Shown here: positions 4,073 through 56,939 of the stretch, one piece after another | Layout: every line of letters starts with the position of its first letter | Position numbering within the stretch: position 1 is the stretch's first letter | DNA from: Ectocarpus siliculosus | Taxonomy: Eukaryota; Sar; Phaeophyceae; Ectocarpales; Ectocarpaceae | DNA length: 64,000 nucleotides | Direction of reading: 5' to 3' | Assembly: GCA_000310025.1 (NCBI GenBank) | Contig: FN649735.1 | Span: forward strand, 3,230,318-3,294,317 | Notes under the pieces: generated by a model | Databases searched by the model: none | Seen by the model: only the letters and a program-made list of their open reading frames with translations | Told to the model about the DNA's origin: nothing | Translations under genes and position numbers: made by a program

Positions 4073-7000
4073 ATGATTCAACCCGGACCAAGCTCCCTTG
4101 GCTCTTTTGCTGCTTTCAAGGCGCACGAGTTTGTGGCACACGCCGGCAAGACCAACTGCGTCGCCGTTGGGCCGCGATCGGGACAAGTCCTGGCTACCGG
4201 AGGAGATGATAAGGTGCGTGCAGAGAGCACGGCAGCACGCGCCATAGTAGTAACTCCGTCATTCCCCGAAGCTGTTGTTGGACCGTGCGTGCTCGAGCAC
4301 CAACACACCTCGCGGGGAGCTGCAATCTGACAAGTGTAACCCCAAACTTGTGTTGCTAGCAGGTCGCGAGAAATGGTGGGGGAAAATGTCATGAGCGATT
4401 GGCAGAACACGGCGCAATGAGCATACTGACTGCTGTTCTTTTTGGTGTACAAAGTACACAATGTACTGTCTAGTTGTACCCACATGTGATCATTCTCGTT
4501 TGGGTTGTCTCATGACGACGTTGTGACCGGGGCAAGCGTAATATGACATCATGTCTCTAGCGACAGACAATCAGTCATGCACGCAAATAGACCTGTGGGG
4601 AGCCTGCCTGAGTCATATGCATAGTTCTCGCCTTACCATTGTTTGTTCCCCTCACGACCTCGTGTCGAAGTTGACCCATCAATCGGTCTTATGATATTCT
4701 CAAGATAGGCCGTGGCGACCAGGAAAATCTGCTAAACACGGTGAAACCAAGTTCGCCTCGTATCCCTCTTATCCATCGTTTCTGACGGCGGGGACGTTCC
4801 CCATTAGGTCGGTGAAGGGCTCGTCTCACGCCCAAGCGGCCTAGGAAGTCTACCACAACCCGAAACCGCCATAAACTAGTATTTTTCTACCCGATGGCAT
4901 GTAATGTACAGAGCCTGCTTCAAAAGCACAACGAACCAACACATGAGAAGTACTTCCGAGGAAGGGAGGCCATGAAACGACCGGGGATAAGTGGAACGGT
5001 CATGTGGGCACGCTGACTCAGCCATGATCAGGCCGCGGAGTCATCATGGAGACCTCATTCCCCGGGAAAATCTCGTGGCCTTGTCGCCACGACACCATGA
5101 TTCTATGACCTAGCGTGCCCGATGGTTTTCTCACGCGAAAGCGTACGATCGTTGTCCCAATGATGCATGAGGATTGCCAAGATTGTCTACCAAGATTGTC
5201 TGCCAAAACCACGGCACCACACGTAGTCAGGAGAGTACACACAACCACGGTGCAATCTTGCAGCAGATCAGGAAACCATGCCTGGAAAAGTCGGGAATAC
5301 CTGGAAGTGTCTCACATTCCCATGCATACCGGGGGTAGAGTACTTACAGATGTAAACCTTCCTCGGCAAAACCCATCTCGTTAGAAACGTTTGACGTTAT
5401 GTCCATCGCGGTTGACAAATCTGTATGCACTCTAGACTTTCCTTACGAAAGTTCCGAGAAGTTTGCGTCGCATGGGGCATATTTCTAGGCCTACCTCCTG
5501 TTTCTCGGCCAATGGCGGGCGCGAAAGAGGCGGGCGCCTATGGTCAAGACCTCGTCTGTATCGTGCGCACTCCGGGCAAAGCTCCTAGAAAAGCACCGGT
5601 TCCACAAAGGAAGGGCTATAAGCTGTCCCCCGCTGCTCCGTCGCTCATTCTGACACACGTGGCCGCTTCGGGACAGAGAGTAAATGTGTGGCGAATTGGA
5701 CGTGCCAGCAGCATTTGGAGCCTCACGGGAAACAGCTCGGCCATCGAGAGCCTGCGGTTTGATCCCACAGAAGAGTTCCTGGTGAGCGGGAGTGCGGGGG
5801 GTGCCGTAAAGTTGTTCGACCTCAGCGCCGGCAAGATGACCAGGCACTTCCGAGGGCACATGTCCAACGTAACCGTCATCGACTGCGGTAGCTTCGACCG
5901 CCGTTTCGTCACTACTGGTTCGATGGACTGCCAGGTGGGTTTCAGGGCAGATACACCCCACGTTGAGATTGTGAGACTCGTATAAGTATATATTTTGGTG
6001 CTCTTTGGTGAGTAGTGAGCCCCCAATCGTTGACTGTTGGCATCCAGCACCGGCTAGAGAAGCTTTGGTTTGTCATCCTGTCGCCACAGAAAAGTCGGTG
6101 GATTACAGGTGTCGTACCAGCCGTACCTGTGGTCGGCATGTATCACCACGCAGAGGAAGAAACGTCTTACGATATTGTAGGGACTCCTTATTCGAACGCC
6201 TGAAGGCGTTTACCGCGAAGGTCTTGACCTTTCATGTTCGAGTTGACTCCTTCCTATTTTTGCTCCTGTTCAAGTGCAACGGTCGAGTGTGGCCTTTCGG
6301 ACGGAGCCTGAAAGCGAGGCAATCAAACATCACGTTGTCATTGAACAATGTCTGCTCCGACGCGGTGCAGGTTAAACTGTGGAACGTGGAGACGAAGGAA
6401 TGCGCCATGGCGTTCAAGGGGCACAACGCAGAGGCAAGCACTATTTGCAAGAGAGCTCGGTTTAGGAAGTAGGACCATAGGTCCTGTAAGTGCTTCAAGA
6501 GCTCAGAAAAACGAGCCGGGGTCTGAAGCACTCGTATAGGTGCCGTTGCTTTGACCCTCACGAAGATGTAGTCATCCAATATAGTAGTAGCCTGGTCTGC
6601 GACTATCCCGTTCATCCACCGCAAACCTAACATCAGCCATACCTCCGAAAGCGTTTGACTCTAAACGTTCACGGAACTTTGCCCGCACCTCTTGATAACA
6701 CTTCATCCCTTCGGGGTTTCGTCCAAAGCTGAAGACAAATGTGCAGTCGCCACCCTGCCGGGAAGAATTGTGTGCTGAAGTTCTCCGCACACGGTGAGGT
6801 ACCGTCGACTTGCTTCGCGCTTTGCCTTTTTCAGGTCACAGACGTCCAGTTTAGCCCCGACGGCCATATTCTGGCCTCGGCGGCCGCGGACGGACAGGTC
6901 AAGCTGTGGGATCTGAGGGCCGGAAAGCCCATGCACACGTTCCAGGTGAATGGCACCGGTACATAGCCTTGGCGAAGAGGTTTGTTTGGATGGGCCTTCC

Positions 7001-43096: not shown

Positions 43097-46000
43097 ATGC
43101 TACCGTACAGCCCAGGAAACCGCGGCGGCGGCGGCGGCGGCGGCGGCAACGACCCCTGCAGCATCATCAAAAGCGTCAGCAGCAGCAAGAGGGGAGGGTG
43201 CGGCTGCTGCCGAACGGTGAACCTGGTGAGCCGACGAACCTTTGTGTTTGTCTTCGCGGCTGGGCTTCTCGGAGCCGCGCTCGTGCTCCTCCTCTCGGCC
43301 GGCGACCGCGACAGATCCTCTTCGCTCTCGTCGTCGTTGCCGTCGACCTCAGCGACGACTGGCTTCAAGGCAACGATCCCGCCGGGATCGCAGCAGCAGA
43401 GCGACCTGCAGGAGCTCCGAGGCGGCGGCGGCGGCGACACCTCCCCATCATCAAACACGGAAACGAGCGGAGGAATAGCGGAAGAGGAGGAGGAGGGAGA
43501 GGGGGGCGACAAGCCCAAGATCACGGTGAGACAGGCGGAGGGCCGAGGCGCTGGGGGGGGCAAGGTGTCCGTCTTCGTCTACGACGGCGTGCCCGAGCTG
43601 GACCACTCGTGGCTGGTGCCGTGCTACCGACAAGTTCGCGATGGCGTCTCCCCGTGGCAGGACGAGAGAGCGGACATGGCGCAGGACATGGGGGAAATAT
43701 GGCTGCACCGGTACGCAAACCCCACCCCTCCCTAATACTGCTGTTTGATCCGGCTGGTGGGTGCTTCTTCTGTGCTCACAGATGGGTGTTGTTCCCTACG
43801 CGCCAGGGGGGCACACATGTAGCGTTTGCCGTGCCTGCGTTTAATTTTTAACACGTCTGCTGGTGTGGTTAGAAACAACAACACACGCTGCTTGTTGCGG
43901 TGCTGGCTCTCGGCATGAACAACACCAGTTCTGTTTGGCAGGTGCACGTTACAATAGATGCGGCGATTACTTTCTAGAGGCGCATCAGGCTCCGGCTGGG
44001 AGTATTGCATGTACAGCCGGTTTCCCTCCACTCACTGAAAAGACTCCACCAGATCCCGTTCGACTGTGGGTATATCTCGAATGGGTAGTCTTTCTGTGTG
44101 TGTTTTTATTATTCCTTGATGTACAGGCGGCGTAGAGGCACCGCTTGGACAGGGTGAATGAAGTACTGCCCTCCCGGGTTTTTGTCATTTGACCTCTTTT
44201 TTTATTTAACTAGTCCACAGAGTGGTGGCTACGGTTTACCAGCAATCCTTTTCAATAGAAAGTAGGAGTTGCGATACTGTACATTCGAGATAAATAATTT
44301 TCCATAATCCAGCGATTCTCCCCTCTTGTGGATAACAGGCACCACAAGACAGTTTAGTGGCCATCTTGTGCATCGGACTATATGTTGTGCTTTTCTAATA
44401 TGATTCTCGAATGAGCGGCCTCCGAACGGTCGTGTGAACAAGAACGTGCTGGTGCTCTATTGGTCGTGGCCCCGATAAAAAGAAGGTCGACGGAATGTTT
44501 GCCACACCACCCTCGAATCTCGGACCCAAGACTGCTTGTACCATGGGTACTCTTGTGTTAGGTCTCGCCACCAACCAGTCTCCACCCGGTTGTTTTCTCT
44601 CTTGCAACGACCAACACCGAACGATCTTGTTGAGCCTATTACCCAGCGGGGAGATGCCGTATCGCTGTATGCTGCACGGGTAACCGTAGAAGCACAGTAT
44701 ATAGTGCTTTACGCTAACGCTATGGATTCATTACTGATCTATCCCGAACGGACTCTTTTAAGTATATCTGTGGAAGAGATGGAGATGTGTTCTTGTAAGT
44801 ACGAAAAATAACAAGATACGATTCTCTGTCGAAAATGCTAAGTTTGTAACTTCGGATTGTCTCTCAAGTCTGGTTTGTAAGCACAGGTGTCCAACGGACA
44901 GCGGTACTTTGCTGCAACACAAGATACGATCCTCTGTCGAAAATGCAAAGTTTGCAACTTCGGGTAGTCTCTCAAGCCTGGTTTGTAAGCACAGGTATCC
45001 AACGGACAGCGGTACTTTGCTGCATGCACGAAATGGGGCGGTGGGTAGCTCGAGTCCCTTACATAACCCCGCTTGTGTACCCCCCGGCTTTGCTGCGGGG
45101 AAAGCCCCAACCACACCACGATGGATTGAGGAAAAGCATGCAGTTAGTTGGACCAGCCCGGATGCATTAGAAGGTAATGAGCGGAGACCAGAACGAGTTT
45201 TAATGTGAAGCTGACAACAACAATGCAGCAGCCCATGCACGCACCCTTGTCCCCTGCCCCCCTCCCCCGCCCCGGTTCGCCCCCCCCCCCCCAACAACAT
45301 CAAATGACACTGGCAAGAGAAGGTAGTACAGTACCTGGGATAGTCTGTTCGCCAGAGAATGAGCACCGCGCTGGGTGAGACCGTATGTAGCTACGTGTGG
45401 CAGGTCCACGAGAGAGATGTCAAGAATGAGAGCAGCTCGGTGGGTTTCAGGACTGATAGACTCTTTCCCACCCGCTCACCACCACCACCCCCTGTTTTCT
45501 CTCTTGCACTTGGTGTTTTAGCGCAATGCTCGCTCACCCGTGGAGAGTAGCCAACCCGGAGGAAGCCGACCTGTTCTACGTGCCCATGTATCCGGTGCTG
45601 AGCACGAAGCTGGGCAACAACAGGTCAGAGGTTTTTACTCCTGTATGCGCATTTTGTGGGATTCTAAATGTCTAGGTTGTCTCCTTTTTTCGTGTCTTGT
45701 TTGTCATCTCAGGGTACGCGAGAAGTTTCATCCAGCGCACATACAGCAGTAGTCATGCAGGTTTTTCGAAGTAAGCAAACATACTGGATACAGTATAGAA
45801 CAGGCTAGGTTGGGGTTAGGGTTAGGATTGGTATGCGTGCCCCCAGCCTGGTCTATTTTCGTAATAAACTTACTTTCTTTGCGTAGGCAATCCCGCACAT
45901 ACCTAGGTACCCCCCGCCGAAGTGCCGAACATTTTTTCGGTTATTTTGCTCCTCTTGGGGCGTGCTCAAAGCCCGCTTCGCTCAAGCCGCTTACGGGGGA

Positions 46001-49000
46001 CGACACATGGTGTGCTAATACTAGTCTAGTGTCATAGCGACGAACGTTACACGCATGCTTTGAGCGGGACAGGTGCTGTCGATGCAAACGTATCCGTTGT
46101 GTGTGATGATTGCTTTGCTTGAGGGTACTGATATCCTTCCCCGATGTTTTCGCTTTACTCTTTCATGGCAGCTCCGTTTGGAGGGGGAGAGAGCCCCCGC
46201 CCTCCCAGTCAGTGTCCGTTTTGTCCCGCTTTCGTTTTCGGAAAGCCCTCAAACGACAAGTATCTAACGCCGCCGTTTCGACACTATCATATCGATCATC
46301 CTGGTGTATACTTCGTAGTAATGAAGCTTTGAAAATCCGTCCATGGGGGGGGGGGGGTGTACTCAATAGTCGTGCATGCCGTAGTCGTTTGACCATTGAC
46401 CTCGCATCCCTACAAAGACGGGACGGAGCACTCCGGGTTCTCACCGGACCAGGCTCTCACATCACCAAGCGCGAAGCACCGTGAGGTATTCGGCGAGTCG
46501 CATGAAGGGTGCGCTGCAACCTGCTAAGTGTGTTCGGCATCCGGTCCATGGGGGGGTGTACTCATAGTCGTGCAAGCCGTAGTCGTTTGACCATTGACCT
46601 CGCATCCCTACAAAGCCGGGACGGAGCACGCCGGGTTCTCACCGGACCAGGCTCTCACATCATGGACCGGGGGGGGTGATTTTTTTCGTTATGTCACCTA
46701 CGGTATTTGTCGCGACTCTGCTGTCCACGGTCGAGAGTCTTCGAACCCGCAGACCTTTCCTGATCATAAGCCGTTGTGTAAGTATAGGGGGCGAGACCCC
46801 TCCTCCGGGTTGGCATTTTTAGAGTGTAACAACAACAACAACGGTTCCTGTGTAAAGGGTGGTTCTCTGTCTTCTTAATAAATGGTCTGAGGCGGAATAC
46901 AACAGATCGCCAAGGATGAGGCCGGTGCAAACCCTGACACGGATGGGAAGCTGTGTCTCCATAGTTATTGTATGAAAAATATATTCATAGTAGCACTAAA
47001 ACTCTTCCCGAACACAAACCTATCTTCGGTGGCAGGTGCGGGGGCAAGACGCACGACGAGCTCATCAACACCTCTGTCGAGTACCTCGCCTTGTCCAGCG
47101 TCTACTTCCGCCGCTTCGGCGGCGCCGACCACACGCTTGTGTGCGCTTGGTGGAACTGCAAGTCGGCGCTGGGGCCGAAGCCCCGGATGCTACTGCGCCG
47201 CACGGTCGTCGGGATCAACGAGAAGATGCTTGAGTGGACCAGGTGCGCGCGCGGGCGGCGGAGTCTGGCTCTCATTCTGTTTACCGGTGGGGGGGGGGGG
47301 GGGATCCTTGATATGAATGCTTTTTGGCTGTTAAACCCAAATGGGGGGGGAGGGGGCTAGAGCTGGGCAGGATATATCCTTGATGTGAGTGCCTCACTCT
47401 TATTGGCTGCTACATGTAGCCGCACGATGGTGTGGGGGGGTAAAGCTGGGCGGGGGATCCTTGATATGAACGCCTCACTTTTTTTTCTTTATTGCCTCGA
47501 GACTGGTGTGGGGGCCCGACGAGCTGTTTTTTGTCGGTAACCGGGGTTGTAGCGTCACCCACACCTACGTACGGGGCACGCCGTGCGTTGGTTGTTGGAT
47601 TCCTACAAGTAGAGAGAACGGTTTGGCCAAGTCGATCGGTATTGGAGGAGCCTCGTGGTAATTTACTAACCAATCGCGTTATTGCCCCGCAACGTGTCGC
47701 CCCGCAACGACAGGTGGGGGTGCGGGTTGGACAAGATGGTCACCATCCCCTACACGGCGAGCAGCGTCCTCACCACCAGCGAGATGATCGGGGGGCGCGC
47801 GGCTGAGGACCGAGATATACCCTTCTTTTTCGTGGGCACGGCCCGGGGTCGCCCGGAGCGCCAAAACTTGGACGTGAGTCATCACATCATCATCGCGAGA
47901 AAGGAAGACTCACGCACCGATGTGACGCTAGATATCAGACCCCCAGGGCCGATTTTCTTCAACAAAAGCTCGATTACTCCCACCACGAAGAGGATGCGTT
48001 AATCCGACGATATGTTTTTGGAAAAGCGCTTGAACGAAACGAGACACTGTCATTTTCGGTGCCGTCATTTCTTTCTGCTGTGGAGTACTCGAGGGTTGAA
48101 AATCGGTCCAGAGGGTGTAATGTCTTACGTCATGCCACCTGCGGTAGGTTCCTCCCGCCCTTCGGGTCTCTTCTGGTTGTATCTGGTCTCGAAATAGGAC
48201 TGAGGGTAAGTATTAAAGTACGTTCGAAAAATACTGCTGTGTCTTCTCTGATATGCTGATGGAAGAAGACTGGGGGGCGCAACTCAGTCTCGTACGGGCG
48301 TTCCAATGTTGCTTTTTGCAGAACAAATATGTGACTATTCTTCTTGTATTTTTCTTGGCGTCTTTTGGACGGTGTGATAGTGAACCTGCCATGATACCCC
48401 CGATGCGTTGGTCATATACGCACAGTAATCGTGGTGTCGATATACGAGGGTGGTGTGACAGAGATCCTCGACCCTCTTATATCTCGGAGCCCCCCTCTTG
48501 CACCGGAATAAGAGGGTACCCATCCTCGACCCCCTTATATCGGAGCCCCCTCTTGGAATACAAGAGGGTACCCAACTACACGACATGTACAGCAGGACGA
48601 GTCCGTGACAACCTGTTTCGGCCCTCCTATACATATAAGAACCCCCTCTTACTCGGCGGTACTCTTATATATCGGAGCCACGACCGTACGTTCGATTCTA
48701 ACGGATCTTTGCATCGTTGGCGTGCCGAATTTCCTTCAGGTGGTGACGGGCATGGCGGAGGGCAGTGTCATGATGCTCGGCGATCATCAATCGGACTGGG
48801 GCATGAACTCGACGCAGTACGCAGCACACATTGCCCGCAGCAGGTGCGACTGCTGCTGCGACTGCTGCTGCTGCTGCTGCTGAAGCGTGGATGTGAAGAA
48901 CATGCGTATTTTGGTAGAACCCTACTGTAGCCGTGTACTTCTTGTTTGGTGTACACGTGTGGTATTTTTTTTTTTTTTTTACCACTTAGAACGTCAAGAG

Positions 49001-50282
49001 TCGCGTTGTCTGCGATAGCACGCATTCATTCGACGCCAGCGTATGAAGAATGAAGAGCCTGCAATGGTTTCGCGTTGTGAACACTGCTGTCTTCCGTGCT
49101 GTACAGCAGTTCGATCGCCCTCTTGTGTTCTCCTTAACATAAGGTACCTTTTTGTTGTTGTTTGTTCACCGTAATAAGGCCCAGCTATAATATAACTACG
49201 CAGCACGGAACACGACATAGCAGCATAAGTAGGTGCCGTATGTGACACAAGATGCCACACCCCCGCAACCGTTTTTCACAAACACGAATACTCCACAGCA
49301 GATATAGTGGCGGTGGCTAAAATGGTGGCGATGAAATTGCCTCGTTGAGATCTTTTCGATTGGCTATCGTTTGGTGTTGGCATCCTCTTCGTCGTGGATG
49401 GGTGGAGCTTTGGAAATGGGTTTGAGAGGGGTGTGGTATATTGCGTCATGTCACATACGGTACTTTTATTAGATCGAAAGAATGCTGAAATCAGACCGTC
49501 GTCGTCTACAACAACAACCTCCACCCACTGTAAAGGCTTCAACACGTCCCCTTGGACTACTATTGTTGAGGTATTTTCTCGAACAGGTAGTAAATCTGTT
49601 TCTGCTGCATGATGTGTTTTATCGAGAAGAAGAAGAGGAGACGATTTATCGAACTTGAACTGACGGATGCTTCCGTCGATCGACATCCCCTTCGACTGTG
49701 GTGTTATCTCGAACCGGCAATCTGTCTACGTTTGTTTATTTTCTAAAGAACCAAGAAGAAATGTGCTACTTGTAGTGAAACTCGAACCTACGGGTGCTTC
49801 GGTCGGTCGATCGAGCAGGTTCTGCTTCTGCCCCAGGGGGGACACGGAATCGAGCCGCCGCATCTTCGACGCCGTTGCCGCGGGCTGTACGCCGATCGTC
49901 ACGGAGGCTTCGGTCGCCGTCCTGCCGTTCTCCGAGTGAGTGCTTTCTTGACACGGGGGATATCCTGTTGGTGTTTGGGGGGGGGGGGGGGGGGGTGATC
50001 CCTGTAACCAAGGCTCNNNNNNNNNNGTGGAGGGGGGGGGGGTCTTCGGTGACCGTCCTCAAGTTCTCCGAGTCAGTTCCCGTCGTTATGGTGTTTGGGA
50101 CGGGTCGTGACAGGAAAAATGGAAGGTGGTTGACAGTTCGGGGGCACCACCGGGGAGGGGGGGGGGGGGGGTCTTGTGTATCTTTTTTTCTTCAACCTTA
50201 TCTCTTGGTTTGTTCGCTAATTTTGTCTATTCCGTTCCCTCGGTCGTTTTTTTGCTTTCTCGGGGCGGGTGCGGGGTGCGCC

Positions 50283-50328
<46 letters not shown>

Positions 50329-52102
50329 TCAGGCATGTGCTCAACTACTCGGACTTTGCCGTGGTCGTGGACCCAGACGCCTTCACCACGCGGGAGAGAG
50401 TGACGAAGGTCGTTCAAGATGCCCTCTCGAGGTGATGGTCGTGTCCTTCTGGTCTGGTTTCGTTTTTGCTGGTTAAGCTCCTTGGCAAAGGGTAAGTGAG
50501 GGGTCCGCGAGAGAAGAATTTGGGGCCCCGCGAAGGGAAATTGGGCGTCCCGTGAATCGTGAATGGGAATTGGGGGTCCCGCGAGTGGGAAACAGGGGTT
50601 CCGCGTAATGGGTCGGGGCGTCGTCCACCGTAAAGACGCAGGCACGAACAATCGCAGTGACGAAGTTTGTTTTGACAAGAGGCGCTGCAAACTATTTTGT
50701 GATTATTGAAGCCGTCGATTTTTTTGTTGTACCGATCGACCGATGACGACAATGCAGGTCGGAAGCGGAGGTGGAGCAGTTGCGAGAAGGCGGGAGAAGG
50801 GGCATCAGCGCCCTCCTGTACGGAGTGACTATGGGCAAGGAGATAGGCGACATGCGGCCCTTCCTCGGCACCGCTACGAAGTTCGTCCGAGCGGTGCGTG
50901 CTGAATCTGCGTATGCTTCCCCCCGCCGCCCCCCCGCTTTTTTGTATGGCCTTTGTGTTTGTCTGCGGTAGTAACCGTGATGGTGGTCGAGTAGATCATG
51001 TTGTACGGGGTGGAAAACCCTCACTCCGCACACAGGGGATGATCGGACTACGTTGTGTTAACGTTGGCCAAGCACCCCCCGAGGCAGTTACACAATGGTC
51101 TCTGGAAGTAAAAGCGCCAGAAAATGCATCAAGTCATTCGCAGCCATCATCCGTATGCCAGGAAGCAAGCACAATATGCCGAACACCCTTAACAGGACGC
51201 AGCGCGACCTTTACTAGCCAATCAGCGCTCGGCCCTTTCCCTACTACGAACCAACAATCCAATCAGAGCAGCGTTCCTTTTCCAAAGAAACTGACCAATC
51301 AGAGCACCGAAGAAACTAGCCAACCAGCGCGCTGCCCCACGAAACCAACCAATCAGAGCTACGCGCTCGCGGGGGGAGGAGGGACTGAGGGCGAGGGCAG
51401 ATCGGCAGACATGTGGACCTGCAACCGGTATGATCCCAAGGGCGAGGAGGTCGACGCGGCTCCGCGGACGACTGCGAAGCTACCCCCCCCTGCCGGCGCA
51501 ACGTGAGAGGATGGCCAGAGTTTATAGCAACAGCAGCGGAGTGTGCTGTAGAGAGGGTATGGGCATGCAGTAGTAGTAGCAGCAGCAGAGTGGGATGATC
51601 AGCATGCGGTGTTGCTGTAGCAAGAGCAGAGTGTGCGCCGTGTAGATAGGATGAGATCGCAGCACGTAGATAAATTTAGATGATGCGGGGGTGGCGCAAG
51701 TACTCCTGCGCAGAGACCGAACGATTTTTACTGCTGTAGCTGCAACAATCAATCATTTCATGATGAACTACAAGAACAATCGAATTATCCAATTCCCTAT
51801 TCCGCTTCCCCTCTCGGAAAAAACCATGGCCAACCCCGGATTGCAGGCGACAGTGGCTGGCCGAGACAGAGACAATCGTGAACGAGGAGCGGTCCCTGCT
51901 TTTCTGCGCGCCCCCGAACACCGGGTCGCTGCAGTTCAGGATGCTCGCCAAACGGATGCAGGTATGTCCCATGTTGTTCAGGCTGCCGTTTGTGTGTCTT
52001 TTTATTGTTAGCATCGACCGCGCTAACCGGCTGACCAATGAAAAGACGTCACTCTCAGTGCGGTTTGACACCGACAAAAGGTCACGATCTGGGACCCCTT
52101 GC

Positions 52103-52134
<32 letters not shown>

Positions 52135-52241
52135 GGTTGTTAGCATCGACCGCGCTGACCGGCTGACCAATGAAAAGACGTCACTCCCAGTGCGGTTTGA
52201 CACCGACAAAAGGTCACGATCTGGGACCCCTTGCTTTGTGC

Positions 52242-52278
<37 letters not shown>

Positions 52279-52291
52279 TGTGTGTGTGTGC

Positions 52292-52323
<32 letters not shown>

Positions 52324-55300
52324 GTTTTGGTTGTTACCATCGACCGCGCTAACCGGCTATCCACTGGCAAGACGTCAGTCTCAGTGCGGGATAAGAACAC
52401 CAACACGCCCGCTAACCACACGGTTCTACCGACGAGCGCGGCGTGCAAGTTTGTACGACAGCAGTGTCCTGCTTTTTTCTCGTAAAACAACAATATGTAC
52501 CCAGCGTCACTTTTCTTAGCCCTTCCCGTTCTCTCTGTTGACTGCGGACACCGGCTCGGACCCAAAACAGTGAAGCCCAACTCAGAGGGGGGCGTCATCG
52601 CCCATCCTTCTGTAGTACTCGCGAGCTAGACCTGGTGGTTTTTTCACCTAAAACGATAGTTGTCGATCGCGAAATAGCGGTGCGGTGTTTGTTCCGTAAC
52701 GTTGAGTTGTCAAGCTTTTTTCTGCTGGGTGGTATACAATAGTATTGGGTGGGTGTGTGTTTTATTGGATAGTTTTCAGTGTTGGGGACGCAATATGCAC
52801 ACAGCGTATCGCTTTCTTCTCCCAACCCTGCCCGTCTGACACAGACACACCACCGGTTCGTAACCCAAACCCGAAAGAAATAATTGGAAGGGTGGCGTCA
52901 TTTCTCCATCCTCCCGTAGTACTCACGAGCTAATTTTGGGAGTTTTTTTTTTTTAACAATATGTACACAACACATCACTTTCTTCTCCCAACCCTACCCG
53001 CCTGACACCACGGACACACACCGGGTTCGGAACCGAACCCTCAAAATTTCGAAGGGCCTCCCGCACTGGGCGGTGTCCAACGACCGGTCGCTGGTGTTCG
53101 ACAGAGAAGCCTCGGGGCTCGAGCTGCTGGATGCGACGGACGGGCACCTGATGGAGGAGATCTACCAGGAGAACGGGTCCGGTTGGATCAAGATCGGCCT
53201 CGTGCGTGACCCGGTCACCCGGCTGCTTTCGGCCTACCTCGACCTTGCCGACAGGTGGCGAGAGGCGTTGTCGCCGCCGGGGGGGGCGGCGGATGATGCT
53301 GCTGCCGGGCAGGTGTGTGTGTGTGTTTTGTTGTTGTTATTATTATTGTTAGCATCGACCGCGTTGACCGGCTGACCAATGAAAAGACGTCAGTTTCAGT
53401 GCCGCCGAAAACAGAAAAACCGCTTGTGTGTGTGCTCCTCTGTTTCCCTTCTGGTTGGCTTTAGTGTGCGCATCGACCGCGCTAACCGGCTGACCAATGA
53501 AAATACGCCAGTCACGCCTAGAAACGGCACACGCGTCTAAAGGCATGTGTGCGCTATTTATCAATAGGTTCTCGAGAAGTGCTCTTTTTTCGCACACTAG
53601 GGAGAACCGGAACATGCTCGAAAGTTCCATTGCCGTTTCGTCATGTTGCTGCATTTGCCTCAACTACTGCTGGAAGTTCACGGCAAATGTATAGTAGAGG
53701 TGCGTGAACGCGCCAAGACAACTCTCAACAGGAACCGTTTGCTGCCGACCGCTTACTGAGCCCCACCCCCGCCGCCACCGCAGAGTTCCAACCACGATCG
53801 ACGGCGGCTACGGCAATCGCCGGACGAGGGGGAGCCTACGGGCGAAGATGATGACCGACATCACCAGCAAGGGGGAAGCAGAGACCATGCACCGCTCACC
53901 GGAAGCGAGTGGGACTTGTTCGACGCTATCGTCGACAGGCGAAGGCGGCGGCGGCGACAGCGGGGACCGGGGCCCCGGCAAGAGGAGGAAAACGAGGGAA
54001 TCGCCTACGAGGGTTTGCACGACAGCGGAGGCGTTTTTGATGGAGAGGGCGGCAGCGGAAGCCGCAACGAAGGAACCGACAACCAAGGGGGCGCTAACGC
54101 CGGCGGCGGGAGGGGCGCGGACGGGCGATTACTACAAGGCGAGAGAAGAACCGACGCAGCAGACCAACCCGTCAAGGCTAACAACGACGACGGCCGGGAG
54201 GTGTCGCCGGAGCACCACCCGCTACGACACCGCGAAATGGAGGAGGAAGGAGAGAGGCGTTTCTTCTGGCAGGGTCCCGGGGGTTGGGACGGCCCCGGGG
54301 CGGCAGGCGAGGACGGCGGCGACAGGTCCGCCGTTGGCGGCGGCGGTGACGGCGACGGCGATGGTGTCGGCGTCCCTACGTTCGTGGAGGTTGTGGAGAC
54401 CCTCAAGGCGGACGTCTGGGGCGGCCCCGTGGCGTTCCGGCCGGCGGTGAGCCTGTGCGGCCAGCGCAACTCTCCGTTCGACAGCGTCATCCCGTTCGAG
54501 AGGCTGCAGGTGTGTGTGTGTGCGTGTGTGCGTTTGTATTTTGCATCGACCGCGCTAACCGGCTGAAAAATGCGTCAGTCTCAGTGCGGTTGAAAACATA
54601 AAATGATTCTAAAGACCTCAATCTGGGACCCCGTGACCGCACGTCATTGGGAGTCCACGCTACTCTCTTGATTAAAGACAGATACCGTAGCAGTGTGTGT
54701 GTGTGTGTGTGTGATGCTCTGTCTCTCGCTGTCTCTACTTGGAGAATGGCACAACTCCAACATATTACACGATTTCAACGGGACTACTATTGCGGGCCAG
54801 ACGCTAGTCGACCGACAGCAATGAGGTTCCCCGTAGTATCTCCCTGCAACCTTCAGTAGTCTTCACGGCCTCTTCTGGCTAACCCTTGCACACGAGATCG
54901 CGACGTTTACCCTCAAGTAGAGAACAATTGCATACAACAAAAGGGTTCTCAACACCAACCAATCTAAGCCGAACCAACCTAAGCCGTCCTCGGGTTCCTT
55001 GCCGAACGAGCACTTGACGGGGCAACTTAAGGTTAATGGAGGGTCGCGTTGCAAGACGATAATGTGTTGCAGAACACGCTCCACCGCTTAAGAACCTCTT
55101 GTTTTGCCCGAAGCTCGTTTCTTTCTCCGTCTTTGCGGGGTAACGCAACATGGACTACGTAGTTTGTGGTGCTGGATTATTAACTCAACACCCGTCGCTG
55201 CGGTCAATATGTTGGTACTCATAATTTTTCAGAGGTAAGGTGTGACGCGTTCTGCTAGTAAACTTTTCTTTCGCCAATTCGTTCCACAAACAGACAGCGA

Positions 55301-55881
55301 ACCCTCTTTGTTGTTCCCCCACTACCCAACTTCGCGAAATATCCTACAGCCACCTTGCCGTCGCACTGACGACAATGCAGAAATGTGACACCCCACAAAC
55401 TAATTTTTTGTGAAGAAGTTAAAGTTCGCCTTCATACCCCTGTATGACGACGAAAACAAGTACCCAAACCCTACGACCACAACACGCCGTGGGTGGTGCC
55501 GATGCTGCAGAAACGTTACACCCCACCATCCAGCCTCGTGGGCCTACCCTACAATCACAGCACGCCTTGGTGGTGGTGATGATGATGAGGATGATGATGA
55601 TGATGATGATGGTATAGAAACGTTATACCCCACCAACCAACTTTTGTGAGCCGACCCTGCAACCACATATAATGATGCAGCAGAAGCGTTACATCCCACC
55701 ACCAACTTTCGTAAATCAACCCTGCAACCACATGATACTATTTATGCGGAATTGTTACATCCCACCAACCAACTTCGTGAACCAATGCTGCAACCACATA
55801 TAGCAATGCAGCAGAAGTGTTACATCCCACCAACCAGCCTCGTGGGCCTACCCTACAATCACAGCACGCCTTTGGTGGTGG

Positions 55882-55928
<47 letters not shown>

Positions 55929-56939
55929 TAGAAACGTTATACCCCACCAACCAACTTTTGTGAGCCGACCCTGCAACCACAGACAATGATGCAGCAGAAG
56001 TGTTACATCCCACCAACCAGCCTCGTGGGCCTACCCTACACACCACAGCACGTCTTGGTGGTGATGATGATGGTGATGCAGAATGTTACACCCCTTCCAA
56101 CCAAACCCTACGCGGTGTTGGTGGCCACCGGCTACAATGTGCAGAAAACCTCTACCGAGCTAGTCAAGTCTCTCCCCGGAGACATCTGGGAGGCGTTCGG
56201 GAAGTCCGGGTGGGGGCCAGAAGGGCAACACGCCTTCATGGAGTTCGACTACGGCCGGAACGCCCGGCGGCGGCAGGGAGGGCCGGTCGGCGAGGAATCA
56301 CAACGACCAGAAGGTTCGTTCACGAAAGCACCGTCGCCTTTGCTTGGGGCGGGGGGGGTGGGGGGTGTCCTCATAGCCGTGCATGCCGTAGTCGTTAGAC
56401 CATTGACCTCGCATCCCTACAAAGCCGGGATGGAGCACGCCGGGTTTCCGCCGGACCAGGCTACCGCATCACCAAACTGATAACGTACATGCACTGGTCG
56501 TTTTAGCATGGGGATTGGTTTCAAGTTCACATGCGTCGACGCGTTCGAAACCTGAAATCCAACGTGTGTACCAAGTTCCTAACTGGTGATGCCTTCTGCA
56601 GCTTTCCTCCTCTATCTCCTCCTCCTCCTCCTCCTCCTCCTCCTCCTCCTCATTCACCTCCTATCATTTTAGTCTTACTCCGACTCCCACTCCTACTCCT
56701 ACTCCTACTCCTCCGTTTACTCTGGGTGCGTAGGCAACGACAAGGACGAGCCCTTGCCGCCGCGCGCGCGCGATCTCTTCGACGGGGAGGACCTTTGCGC
56801 GTGGGCGGAGTACTACAACGACCTGGAGACCCTAGAGACTGTTGGCAAGATCTACGAGTTGGACTACACCTACTACCGCTGGTACCGGCTTGATCCGTGG
56901 AGGGAGAGACTGCAGGCCTGCTTGGCTGCCAAGCGTTGA
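43097..56939 (+). CDS. Predicted bifunctional exostosin (GT47) glycosyltransferase-sulfotransferase
   Basis: Exons: 43097-43710, 45522-45623, 47036-47242, 47714-47873, 48740-48843, 49819-49935, 50333-50431, 50758-50893, 51357-51502, 51847-51961, 53055-53312, 53784-54509, 56145-56313, 56734-56939. Every junction is in phase: 1052 aa. Residues 48-68 (TFVFVFAAGLLGAALVLLLS) are a signal anchor, so a type II Golgi protein. Residues about 150-513 are exostosin-like: KVSVFVYDG, ANPEEADLFYVPMYPVL, KMVTIPYTA, IPFFFVGTARG, FCFCPRGDTESSRRIFDAVA, AGCTPIV. Residues about 565-1052 are a carbohydrate sulfotransferase: 5'-PAPS loop CAPPNTGSLQFR (582-593), 3'-phosphate motif VRDPVTRLLSAY (R651, S659), SLCGQRNSPFDSVIPFERL, and C-terminal VGKIYELDYTYYRWY. 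Exon 12 inserts about 150 acidic and basic low-complexity residues. Exon 9 (acceptor uncertain) is the bridge. The alternative is two adjacent genes. The 10 N gap lies in intron 6. Confidence 0.8.
44811..45035 (-). repeat. Tandem pair of about 110 bases with zinc-finger-like coding
   Basis: Two tandem units (about 44811-44922 and 44923-45035) lie in intron 1 of the glycosyltransferase gene. On the minus strand each reads AAKYRCPLDTCAYKP, then LRDYPKLQT or LRDNPKLQT, the CxxxxC start and spacing of a C2H2-type finger repeat. It is probably a fragment of a zinc-finger gene or element; no complete frame. Confidence 0.5.
45150..45226 (+). repeat. CAA-tailed repeat, family C, copy 3
   Basis: ATTAGAAGGTAATGAGCGGA then GACCAGAACGAGTTTTAATG and a short ACAACAACAA tail, like the copy at 41690. 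Confidence 0.5.
46358..46484 (+). repeat. SINE-like repeat, family S, copy 2
   Basis: GTGTACTCAATAGTCGTGCA then TGCCGTAGTCGTTTGACC and GACCTCGCATCCCTACAAAG, ending CATCACCAAGCGCGAAGC. Same orientation as the host gene, in intron 2. Confidence 0.75.
46552..46662 (+). repeat. SINE-like repeat, family S, copy 3
   Basis: Second copy within 200 bases of copy 2 and very similar to it, including GGGTTCTCACCGGACCAGG. It is followed directly by a MITE right end (46664-46703), so the elements are nested or abutting. Confidence 0.75.
46664..46703. repeat. MITE family M, right-end remnant
   Basis: TGGACCGGGGGGGGTGATTT then TTTTCGTTATGTCACCTACG, matching the right arm of the copies at 26341, 47915 and 49233. 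Confidence 0.45.
47915..48146. repeat. MITE, family M, copy 2
   Basis: Left arm CACCGATGTGACGCTAGATA then TCAGACCCCCAGGGCCGATT; right arm ATCGGTCCAGAGGGTGTAAT then GTCTTACGTCATGCCACCTG. About 230 bases in intron 4 of the glycosyltransferase gene, 40 bases after the donor. Confidence 0.65.
49233..49462. repeat. MITE, family M, copy 3
   Basis: Left arm GTGCCGTATGTGACACAAGA then TGCCACACC; right arm GGTGTGGTATATTGCGTC then ATGTCACATACGGTAC. The arms are clear inverted repeats. It lies in intron 5. Confidence 0.7.
50017..50026. other. Assembly gap, 10 N
   Basis: Ten Ns in intron 6 just after an 18-base G run. Sequence after the gap partly repeats the end of exon 6 (GTTCTCCGAGT and GGTGTTTGGG recur), so this may be a read-merging problem or a real small duplication. 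Confidence 0.9.
52009..52420 (+). repeat. Three tandem copies of splice-site-proximal repeat, family R
   Basis: Copies starting near 52009, 52141 and 52338 carry GCATCGACCGCGCTAACCGG, CTGACCAATGAAAAGACG and CTCAGTGCGG, and are separated by long TG runs. They fill the 5' half of intron 10. Further copies are near 53353 and 53470 (intron 11) and 54543 (intron 12). Confidence 0.75.
52490..53054 (+). repeat. Tandem repeat ending at a 3' splice site
   Basis: Three related units start near 52490, 52787 and 52958: CAATATGTACCCAGCGTCAC, CAATATGCACACAGCGTATC, CAATATGTACACAACACATC. Each goes on to a pyrimidine-rich stretch, a GGTTCG-type block and an AG followed by G. The last unit supplies the AAG|GGC acceptor of exon 11 at 53055. 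Confidence 0.6.
55370..56100 (+). repeat. Minisatellite with ATG/GAT microsatellite cores
   Basis: About a dozen imperfect units of roughly 60 bases such as GTTACATCCCACCAACCAGC then CTCGTGGGCCTACCCTAC, interrupted by GATGAT runs near 55570-55612 and 55875-55929. Entirely within intron 12, ending about 45 bases before exon 13. Confidence 0.75.
56366..56477 (+). repeat. SINE-like repeat, family S, copy 4
   Basis: GTCCTCATAGCCGTGCATGC then CGTAGTCGTTAGACCATTGA and GGACCAGGCTACCGCATCAC, in intron 13. Confidence 0.75.

Follow-up and report, generated by a model that had tools for sequence, protein, structure and literature searches.

A locus of the brown alga Ectocarpus siliculosus raises the question of whether one and the same polypeptide may both extend a matrix polysaccharide and sulfate it. 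The locus lies in a stretch of 64,000 nucleotides (GenBank assembly GCA_000310025.1, contig FN649735.1, positions 3,230,318 to 3,294,317), hereafter the window, in whose numbering positions are given unless a contig is named. The original prediction, made from the letters alone, proposed that a gene at 43097-56939 encodes a glycosyltransferase (GT) of family GT47 fused to a carbohydrate sulfotransferase (ST), and read it as a bifunctional enzyme of sulfated polysaccharide assembly. Comparison with related proteins shows a single predicted polypeptide with a GT47 domain and a sulfotransferase-type domain, conserved in brown algae.

A fused gene in Ectocarpus and its relatives

In the rebuilt model, the gene (43097-56939, + strand) has the fourteen phase-compatible exons that had been claimed, with GT-AG introns throughout and no internal stop, and the start at 43097, the stop at 56939 and the span of exons 8-10 (50758-51961) are likewise as proposed. 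With exon 9 ending at 51502, the predicted product is 1052 residues long. Its membrane anchor comes first, followed by the GT47 domain (PF03016), and a linker leads from there to a Sulfotransfer_2 domain (PF03567). The expected N-terminal anchor is found as a hydrophobic stretch of 19 residues that begins at residue 48 (residues 48-66, Kyte-Doolittle mean 2.61). Exon 9 starts at 51357, and its best end is 51502 (donor GTGAGA), which was chosen because the relatives P0001 and P0002 keep 25 residues that fit a donor at 51503. An end at 51427 is also in frame and was rejected, as it loses these residues. The protein is 89% identical to P0001, from Ectocarpus sp. CCAP 1310/34, which aligns to all fourteen exons, including exon 9 without gaps, and this alignment rules out that the phases agree by chance.

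When the two halves were scanned separately, Pfam placed both families in this one protein, as the original prediction had anticipated. The GT half matched PF03016 at 121.4 bits (cut-off 33.4, E 5.8e-35) and the ST half PF03567 at 26.0 bits (cut-off 22, E 1.2e-5), both above the curated cut-offs. For the C-terminal half Pfam lists Sulfotransfer_2 and not GT64, and no deacetylase family is listed for the protein, the partner domain being GT47. The GT47 fold of the N-terminal half is shown by comparison, its GT-B fold resembling solved GT47 enzymes, and a sulfotransferase fold of the C-terminal half is likely.

Three protein searches yielded 41 relatives in total. From 7988 scored candidates the first gave 13 proteins. 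A profile search gave 39 from 7993 scored; 12 of these belonged to the earlier 13 (P0013 was not recovered), and the other 27 were new. A third search, started from P0039, gave two matches, both from Sanguina, one of which was added. Signatures of both domains are present in 19 of the 41 (P0001-P0014, P0017, P0019, P0022, P0039 and P0041), three show mainly or only the ST side (P0015, P0018 and P0023), and the other 19 have GT47 alone; among the latter, P0024-P0038 (15 proteins) are pieces of 315-447 residues from ena or lgn sources. The fused relatives come from Ectocarpus (several), Scytosiphon promiscuus, Ascophyllum nodosum, Laminaria digitata, Undpi1, a genome which we take to be that of Undaria, and Sanguina aurantia. 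The brown-algal genera presumably span three orders, and the orthologues are thus not always split into two genes. A single gene-prediction pipeline as the origin of the fusion was rejected, because fused models are found alike in NCBI records and in EukProt entries with two further naming styles. In the own genome (189 Mb in 492 contigs), all 14 matches of a search with P0001 fall in this gene (21 candidates scored).

The linker is conserved as well. Distant relatives retain a tryptophan-x-cysteine and a proline pair ahead of a WLxE(S/T)ETI block, and in a shuffle test on 15 of 19 proteins none of 1000 shuffles equalled the linker score for nine proteins, whereas 2-43 did so for five and 68 for P0015. 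Furthermore, in trees of 16 rows the GT half and the ST half give the same close groups without strongly supported conflict; the ST tree leaves the kelp and Ascophyllum rows unresolved, and neither P0013 nor P0039, both long rows, could be placed. Because fused relatives occur in five brown-algal genera, the linker is conserved and the trees show no such conflict, it is very unlikely that prediction error merged two adjacent genes, one for a GT47 protein with its end behind exon 8 and one for a sulfotransferase with its start ahead of exon 10. The frame of exon 8 can indeed continue to a stop at about 50970, four CCAATCAG boxes stand directly ahead of exon 9, and P0021 is a GT-only model that is not flagged as partial. 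However, exon 9 is coding and conserved outside Ectocarpus too, the fused models have the several sources named above, and the open frame of exon 10 offers no ATG ahead of its PAPS (3'-phosphoadenosine 5'-phosphosulfate) loop. The boxes could also serve an internal promoter in intron 8 that yields, next to the fused protein, a short sulfotransferase-only form: 139 bases of that intron (51218-51356) hold four + strand copies of CCAATCAG, the last overlapping the exon 9 acceptor, and the whole window holds seven on both strands together, compared with a mean of 2.2 in shuffles. Such a form would nonetheless be without the anchor, and the boxes may simply be repeats, so that we regard it as improbable.

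Along the gene, all of it on the + strand, identity to P0001 is found in every exon. Exon 1 (43097-43710; 175 of 196 aligned residues identical) encodes the N-terminus, the anchor as located by hydropathy, a low-complexity stem and the start of the GT47 domain. This domain continues through exons 2 (45522-45623; 30/33, tblastn), 3 (47036-47242; 62/68), 4 (47714-47873; 51/53) and 5 (48740-48843; 31/34) to exon 6 (49819-49935; 37/38), which has the donor-site signature FCFCPRGDTESSRRIFDAVAAGCTPIV and a PF03016 exon match, and then through exon 7 (50333-50431; 32/32) to exon 8 (50758-50893; 41/45), where the GT47 half ends. Exon 9 (51357-51502, donor corrected to 51503; 43/48, and 44/48 to P0002), on which the shuffle test against 15 relatives bears, forms the inter-domain linker with its MWxC, PRT and PPP elements. 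The ST domain starts in exon 10 (51847-51961; 36/38, and 37/38 to P0003 from Scytosiphon) with the 5' PAPS loop CAPPNTGSLQFRMLAKRM and continues in exon 11 (53055-53312; 80/86, PF03567) with the 3'-phosphate motif VRDPVTRLLSAY. Exon 12 (53784-54509; 212 of 239 aligned residues) holds a low-complexity insert and then the conserved CGQRNSPFDSVIPFERLQ. Exon 13 (56145-56313; 54/56) belongs to the ST half and carries KTSTELVKSLPG...FMEFDYG, and exon 14 (56734-56939; 64/67) supplies its C-terminal end and the stop codon. Introns 10, 11 and 12 contain a repeated element of varying form, about ATCGACCGCGCTAACCGGCTGACCAATGAAAA (51981-52400, 53350-53520 and 54540-54590), beside which GT-rich runs were seen in introns 10 and 12.

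The models g9922-g9924 (P0004-P0006) all belong to this GT47-ST family and are probably neighbours in one EukProt genome. P0003 and P0009 lie on Scytosiphon contigs of the same length (45,854) and so probably on one contig. Laminaria digitata has six partial members (P0011, P0012, P0014, P0015, P0018 and P0023) on contigs that differ in length, with 60-79% mutual identity. Because g9922-g9924 are all members and Laminaria digitata has these six, the family has probably gained members in certain lineages.

The predicted PAPS site of the sulfotransferase-type domain

Carbohydrate sulfotransferases of PF03567 share the 3'-phosphate motif RxPxxRxxSxY, and classical sulfotransferases have a lysine or arginine at the basic position of the 5' PAPS loop. 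In the heparan sulfate enzyme NDST1, residues K614-T618 contact PAP (3'-phosphoadenosine 5'-phosphate), according to the part covered of PMC10864358. Both motifs had been claimed for the window protein, and their letters are present. The 3' motif is intact (RDPVTRLLSAY), but the 5' motif CAPPNTGSLQFR has an asparagine in place of the usual basic residue. The serine of the 3' motif is kept in 13 of 14 brown-algal rows of the alignment; the replacements are aspartate in P0013, alanine in P0039 and phenylalanine in the Ectocarpus paralogue P0010. With regard to the loop exon, exon 10 is the best conserved exon in all five brown-algal relatives outside Ectocarpus that were compared exon by exon, with identities to the window protein of 37/38 (P0003), 32/38 (P0005), 30/38 (P0006), 31/38 (P0007) and 29/38 (P0008); the corresponding values for the glycosyltransferase donor exon are 32/38, 27/38, 24/38, 24/38 and 26/38. 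The site is therefore under strong constraint in brown algae.

Several results weigh against a working sulfotransferase and, in part, against the assignment of the domain itself. The asparagine replaces the basic residue in all 20 brown-algal sequences that reach the position (19 proteins and the window), the position aligns with tyrosine in P0013 and with leucine in P0039 and also in P0041, and no relative examined has lysine or arginine there. Exon 10 is poorly conserved in the outliers P0013 (7/38) and P0039 (7/32). On whole proteins, PF03567 scores 34.7 bits for P0039, 33.8 for P0008, 27.4 for P0007 and 23.0 for P0003 (cut-off 22), P0001 reaches only 19.5 and P0013 13.4, both below the cut-off, and PF03567, searched exon by exon through the own genome, gave no match in this gene. 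Moreover, Foldseek found no sulfotransferase match better than E 0.5 with predicted models of modest confidence (mean pLDDT, the predicted local distance difference test, of 55.9 and 64.6). When the ST piece P0023 was searched against PDB sequences, no sulfotransferase came up; profile A3 matched exostosins, and a sulfotransferase only once, at E 2.1; and an NCBIfam search gave no informative match. Judged by its residues, the C-terminal half is thus best described as a sulfotransferase-type domain and not filed as a classical carbohydrate sulfotransferase, though it may work like one.

Reach of the pairing and proposed function

Beyond brown algae, the pairing appears in two further places. 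The metagenomic protein P0013 (632 residues, from an ena source) matches the GT profile at E 3.2e-112 and, at E 4.8e-12 (Z = 1000), a profile that covers the linker and the ST half of the brown-algal proteins. P0039, from the chlorophyte (green alga) Sanguina aurantia, matches the GT profile at 1.4e-61 and the ST profile only at 9.8e-5; Pfam assigns it both domains above cut-off, and domain by domain its ST match, a further adverse point, consists of three short segments, all weak, whose order is correct. No relative was found among 52 pattern stretches in viral contigs or among 76 in prokaryotes, taken as one genome per species. The occurrence of the pairing in brown algae, P0013 and Sanguina may reflect common descent, independent fusion or transfer.

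The search of the own genome with PF03567 matched one place only, outside this gene: an exon that carries VRDPAERLVSAF and lies about 0.42 Mb away from the window on its contig (C10:2807045-2807128, minus strand). It apparently belongs to an unfused sulfotransferase, whose 5' loop exon was not found. Four GT47 exon matches inside 145 kb of one contig (G000:C241, 69879-213235) look like a GT47 cluster. The window itself also holds a WD40-repeat exon at 5416-5985 (+; PF00400, 43.6 bits, cut-off 27), whose gene may be katanin p80-like.

That the gene encodes a fused membrane enzyme which extends and sulfates a matrix polysaccharide is the interpretation that we favour, by a modest degree. Its product would be a single type II membrane protein that presumably resides in the Golgi and has a conserved linker between its exostosin-type GT47 domain and its Sulfotransfer_2-type domain. 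The GT47 domain would extend a matrix polysaccharide by a sugar, most likely glucuronic acid (GlcA), galactose (Gal) or xylose (Xyl), and the adjacent domain would sulfate the same chain close to the site of addition, with PAPS as donor, so that elongation could be coupled to sulfation. The sulfotransferase, if working, would use a non-classical 5' PAPS loop with asparagine for the basic residue. Of the bifunctional proposal, the single polypeptide with its two domain types has held up, and catalysis by both halves is made uncertain by the asparagine. According to the part covered of PMC7359372, Gal, GlcA, Xyl and arabinose are sugars that plant and animal GT47 enzymes transfer, and the sections covered of a 2026 review place the candidate fucan fucosyltransferases, none of them biochemically characterised, in GT10, 23, 41 and 74 (PMC13380512). 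Because of these GT47 activities and of the other families of the fucosyltransferase candidates, the protein seems less likely to be a fucan backbone synthase than to add GlcA, Xyl or Gal to a sulfated heteropolysaccharide.

A tentative alternative, which we consider quite possible, keeps the one fused protein and an active GT47 domain, and supposes that the sulfotransferase-fold domain transfers no sulfate and instead binds PAPS, PAP or a sulfated acceptor, thereby steering or regulating the glycosyltransferase. The missing basic residue in every relative examined and the altered 3' serines of P0013, P0039 and P0010 agree with it, whereas a pure scaffold need not retain the PAPS-loop exon as the best conserved one in five brown-algal relatives, nor the 3' serine in nearly all brown-algal rows. 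A bolder proposal, for now doubtful, is that of an old algal polymerase family, shared by brown algae, the metagenomic organism and a green alga, which would combine sugar addition and sulfation in one polypeptide around an active site that lacks the canonical basic residue, and would represent either a new mode of stabilising sulfate transfer or a PAPS sensor tying wall-polymer synthesis to sulfate supply.

Known enzymes and the brown-algal matrix

Among the closest known parallels to a fused extending and sulfating enzyme are enzymes of heparan sulfate synthesis. The exostosins EXT1, EXT2 and EXTL3 are heparan sulfate polymerases that join GT47 to a C-terminal GT64 domain. They share with the window protein the GT47 fold with its donor-site region, a two-domain arrangement and a polysaccharide that becomes sulfated, whereas the second domain of the window protein is sulfotransferase-type and not GT64. 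In NDST1, the heparan sulfate N-deacetylase/N-sulfotransferase, the partner is a deacetylase instead of a glycosyltransferase, and the PAPS loop has K614 where the window protein has asparagine. The carbohydrate sulfotransferases of PF03567, which include HNK-1ST, CHST8-14 and 2-OST, resemble it in the Pfam match and in the 3' motif RDPxxRLxSAY, and differ in the 5' loop and in the absence of a GT47 fusion. Other gene fusions of brown algae, FK-GFPP and ST-alpha/beta hydrolase, which the portion covered of PMC6418280 assigns to the pathway of sulfated fucans, have other partners and no glycosyltransferase.

The original prediction knew of no described enzyme with this pairing, in agreement with our search of the open-access literature (titles and abstract starts), which found no description of a GT47-sulfotransferase pairing; the subscription literature may mention one. 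The words exostosin and GT47 are absent from the main text of a study of kelp sulfotransferases (PMC7291590). In the parts covered of PMC11468063, brown-algal genomes are reported to have on average nine GT47 genes each and about ten ST orthologous groups, no GT47-ST protein is mentioned, and neutral chains are considered likely to be polymerised first and then sulfated. A conserved glycosyltransferase-sulfotransferase protein suggests that, for at least one brown-algal polymer, polymerisation and sulfation are coupled. It bears on the question of which enzymes build and sulfate the matrix polysaccharides of brown algae, and offers one expressible protein with which such coupling could be tested.

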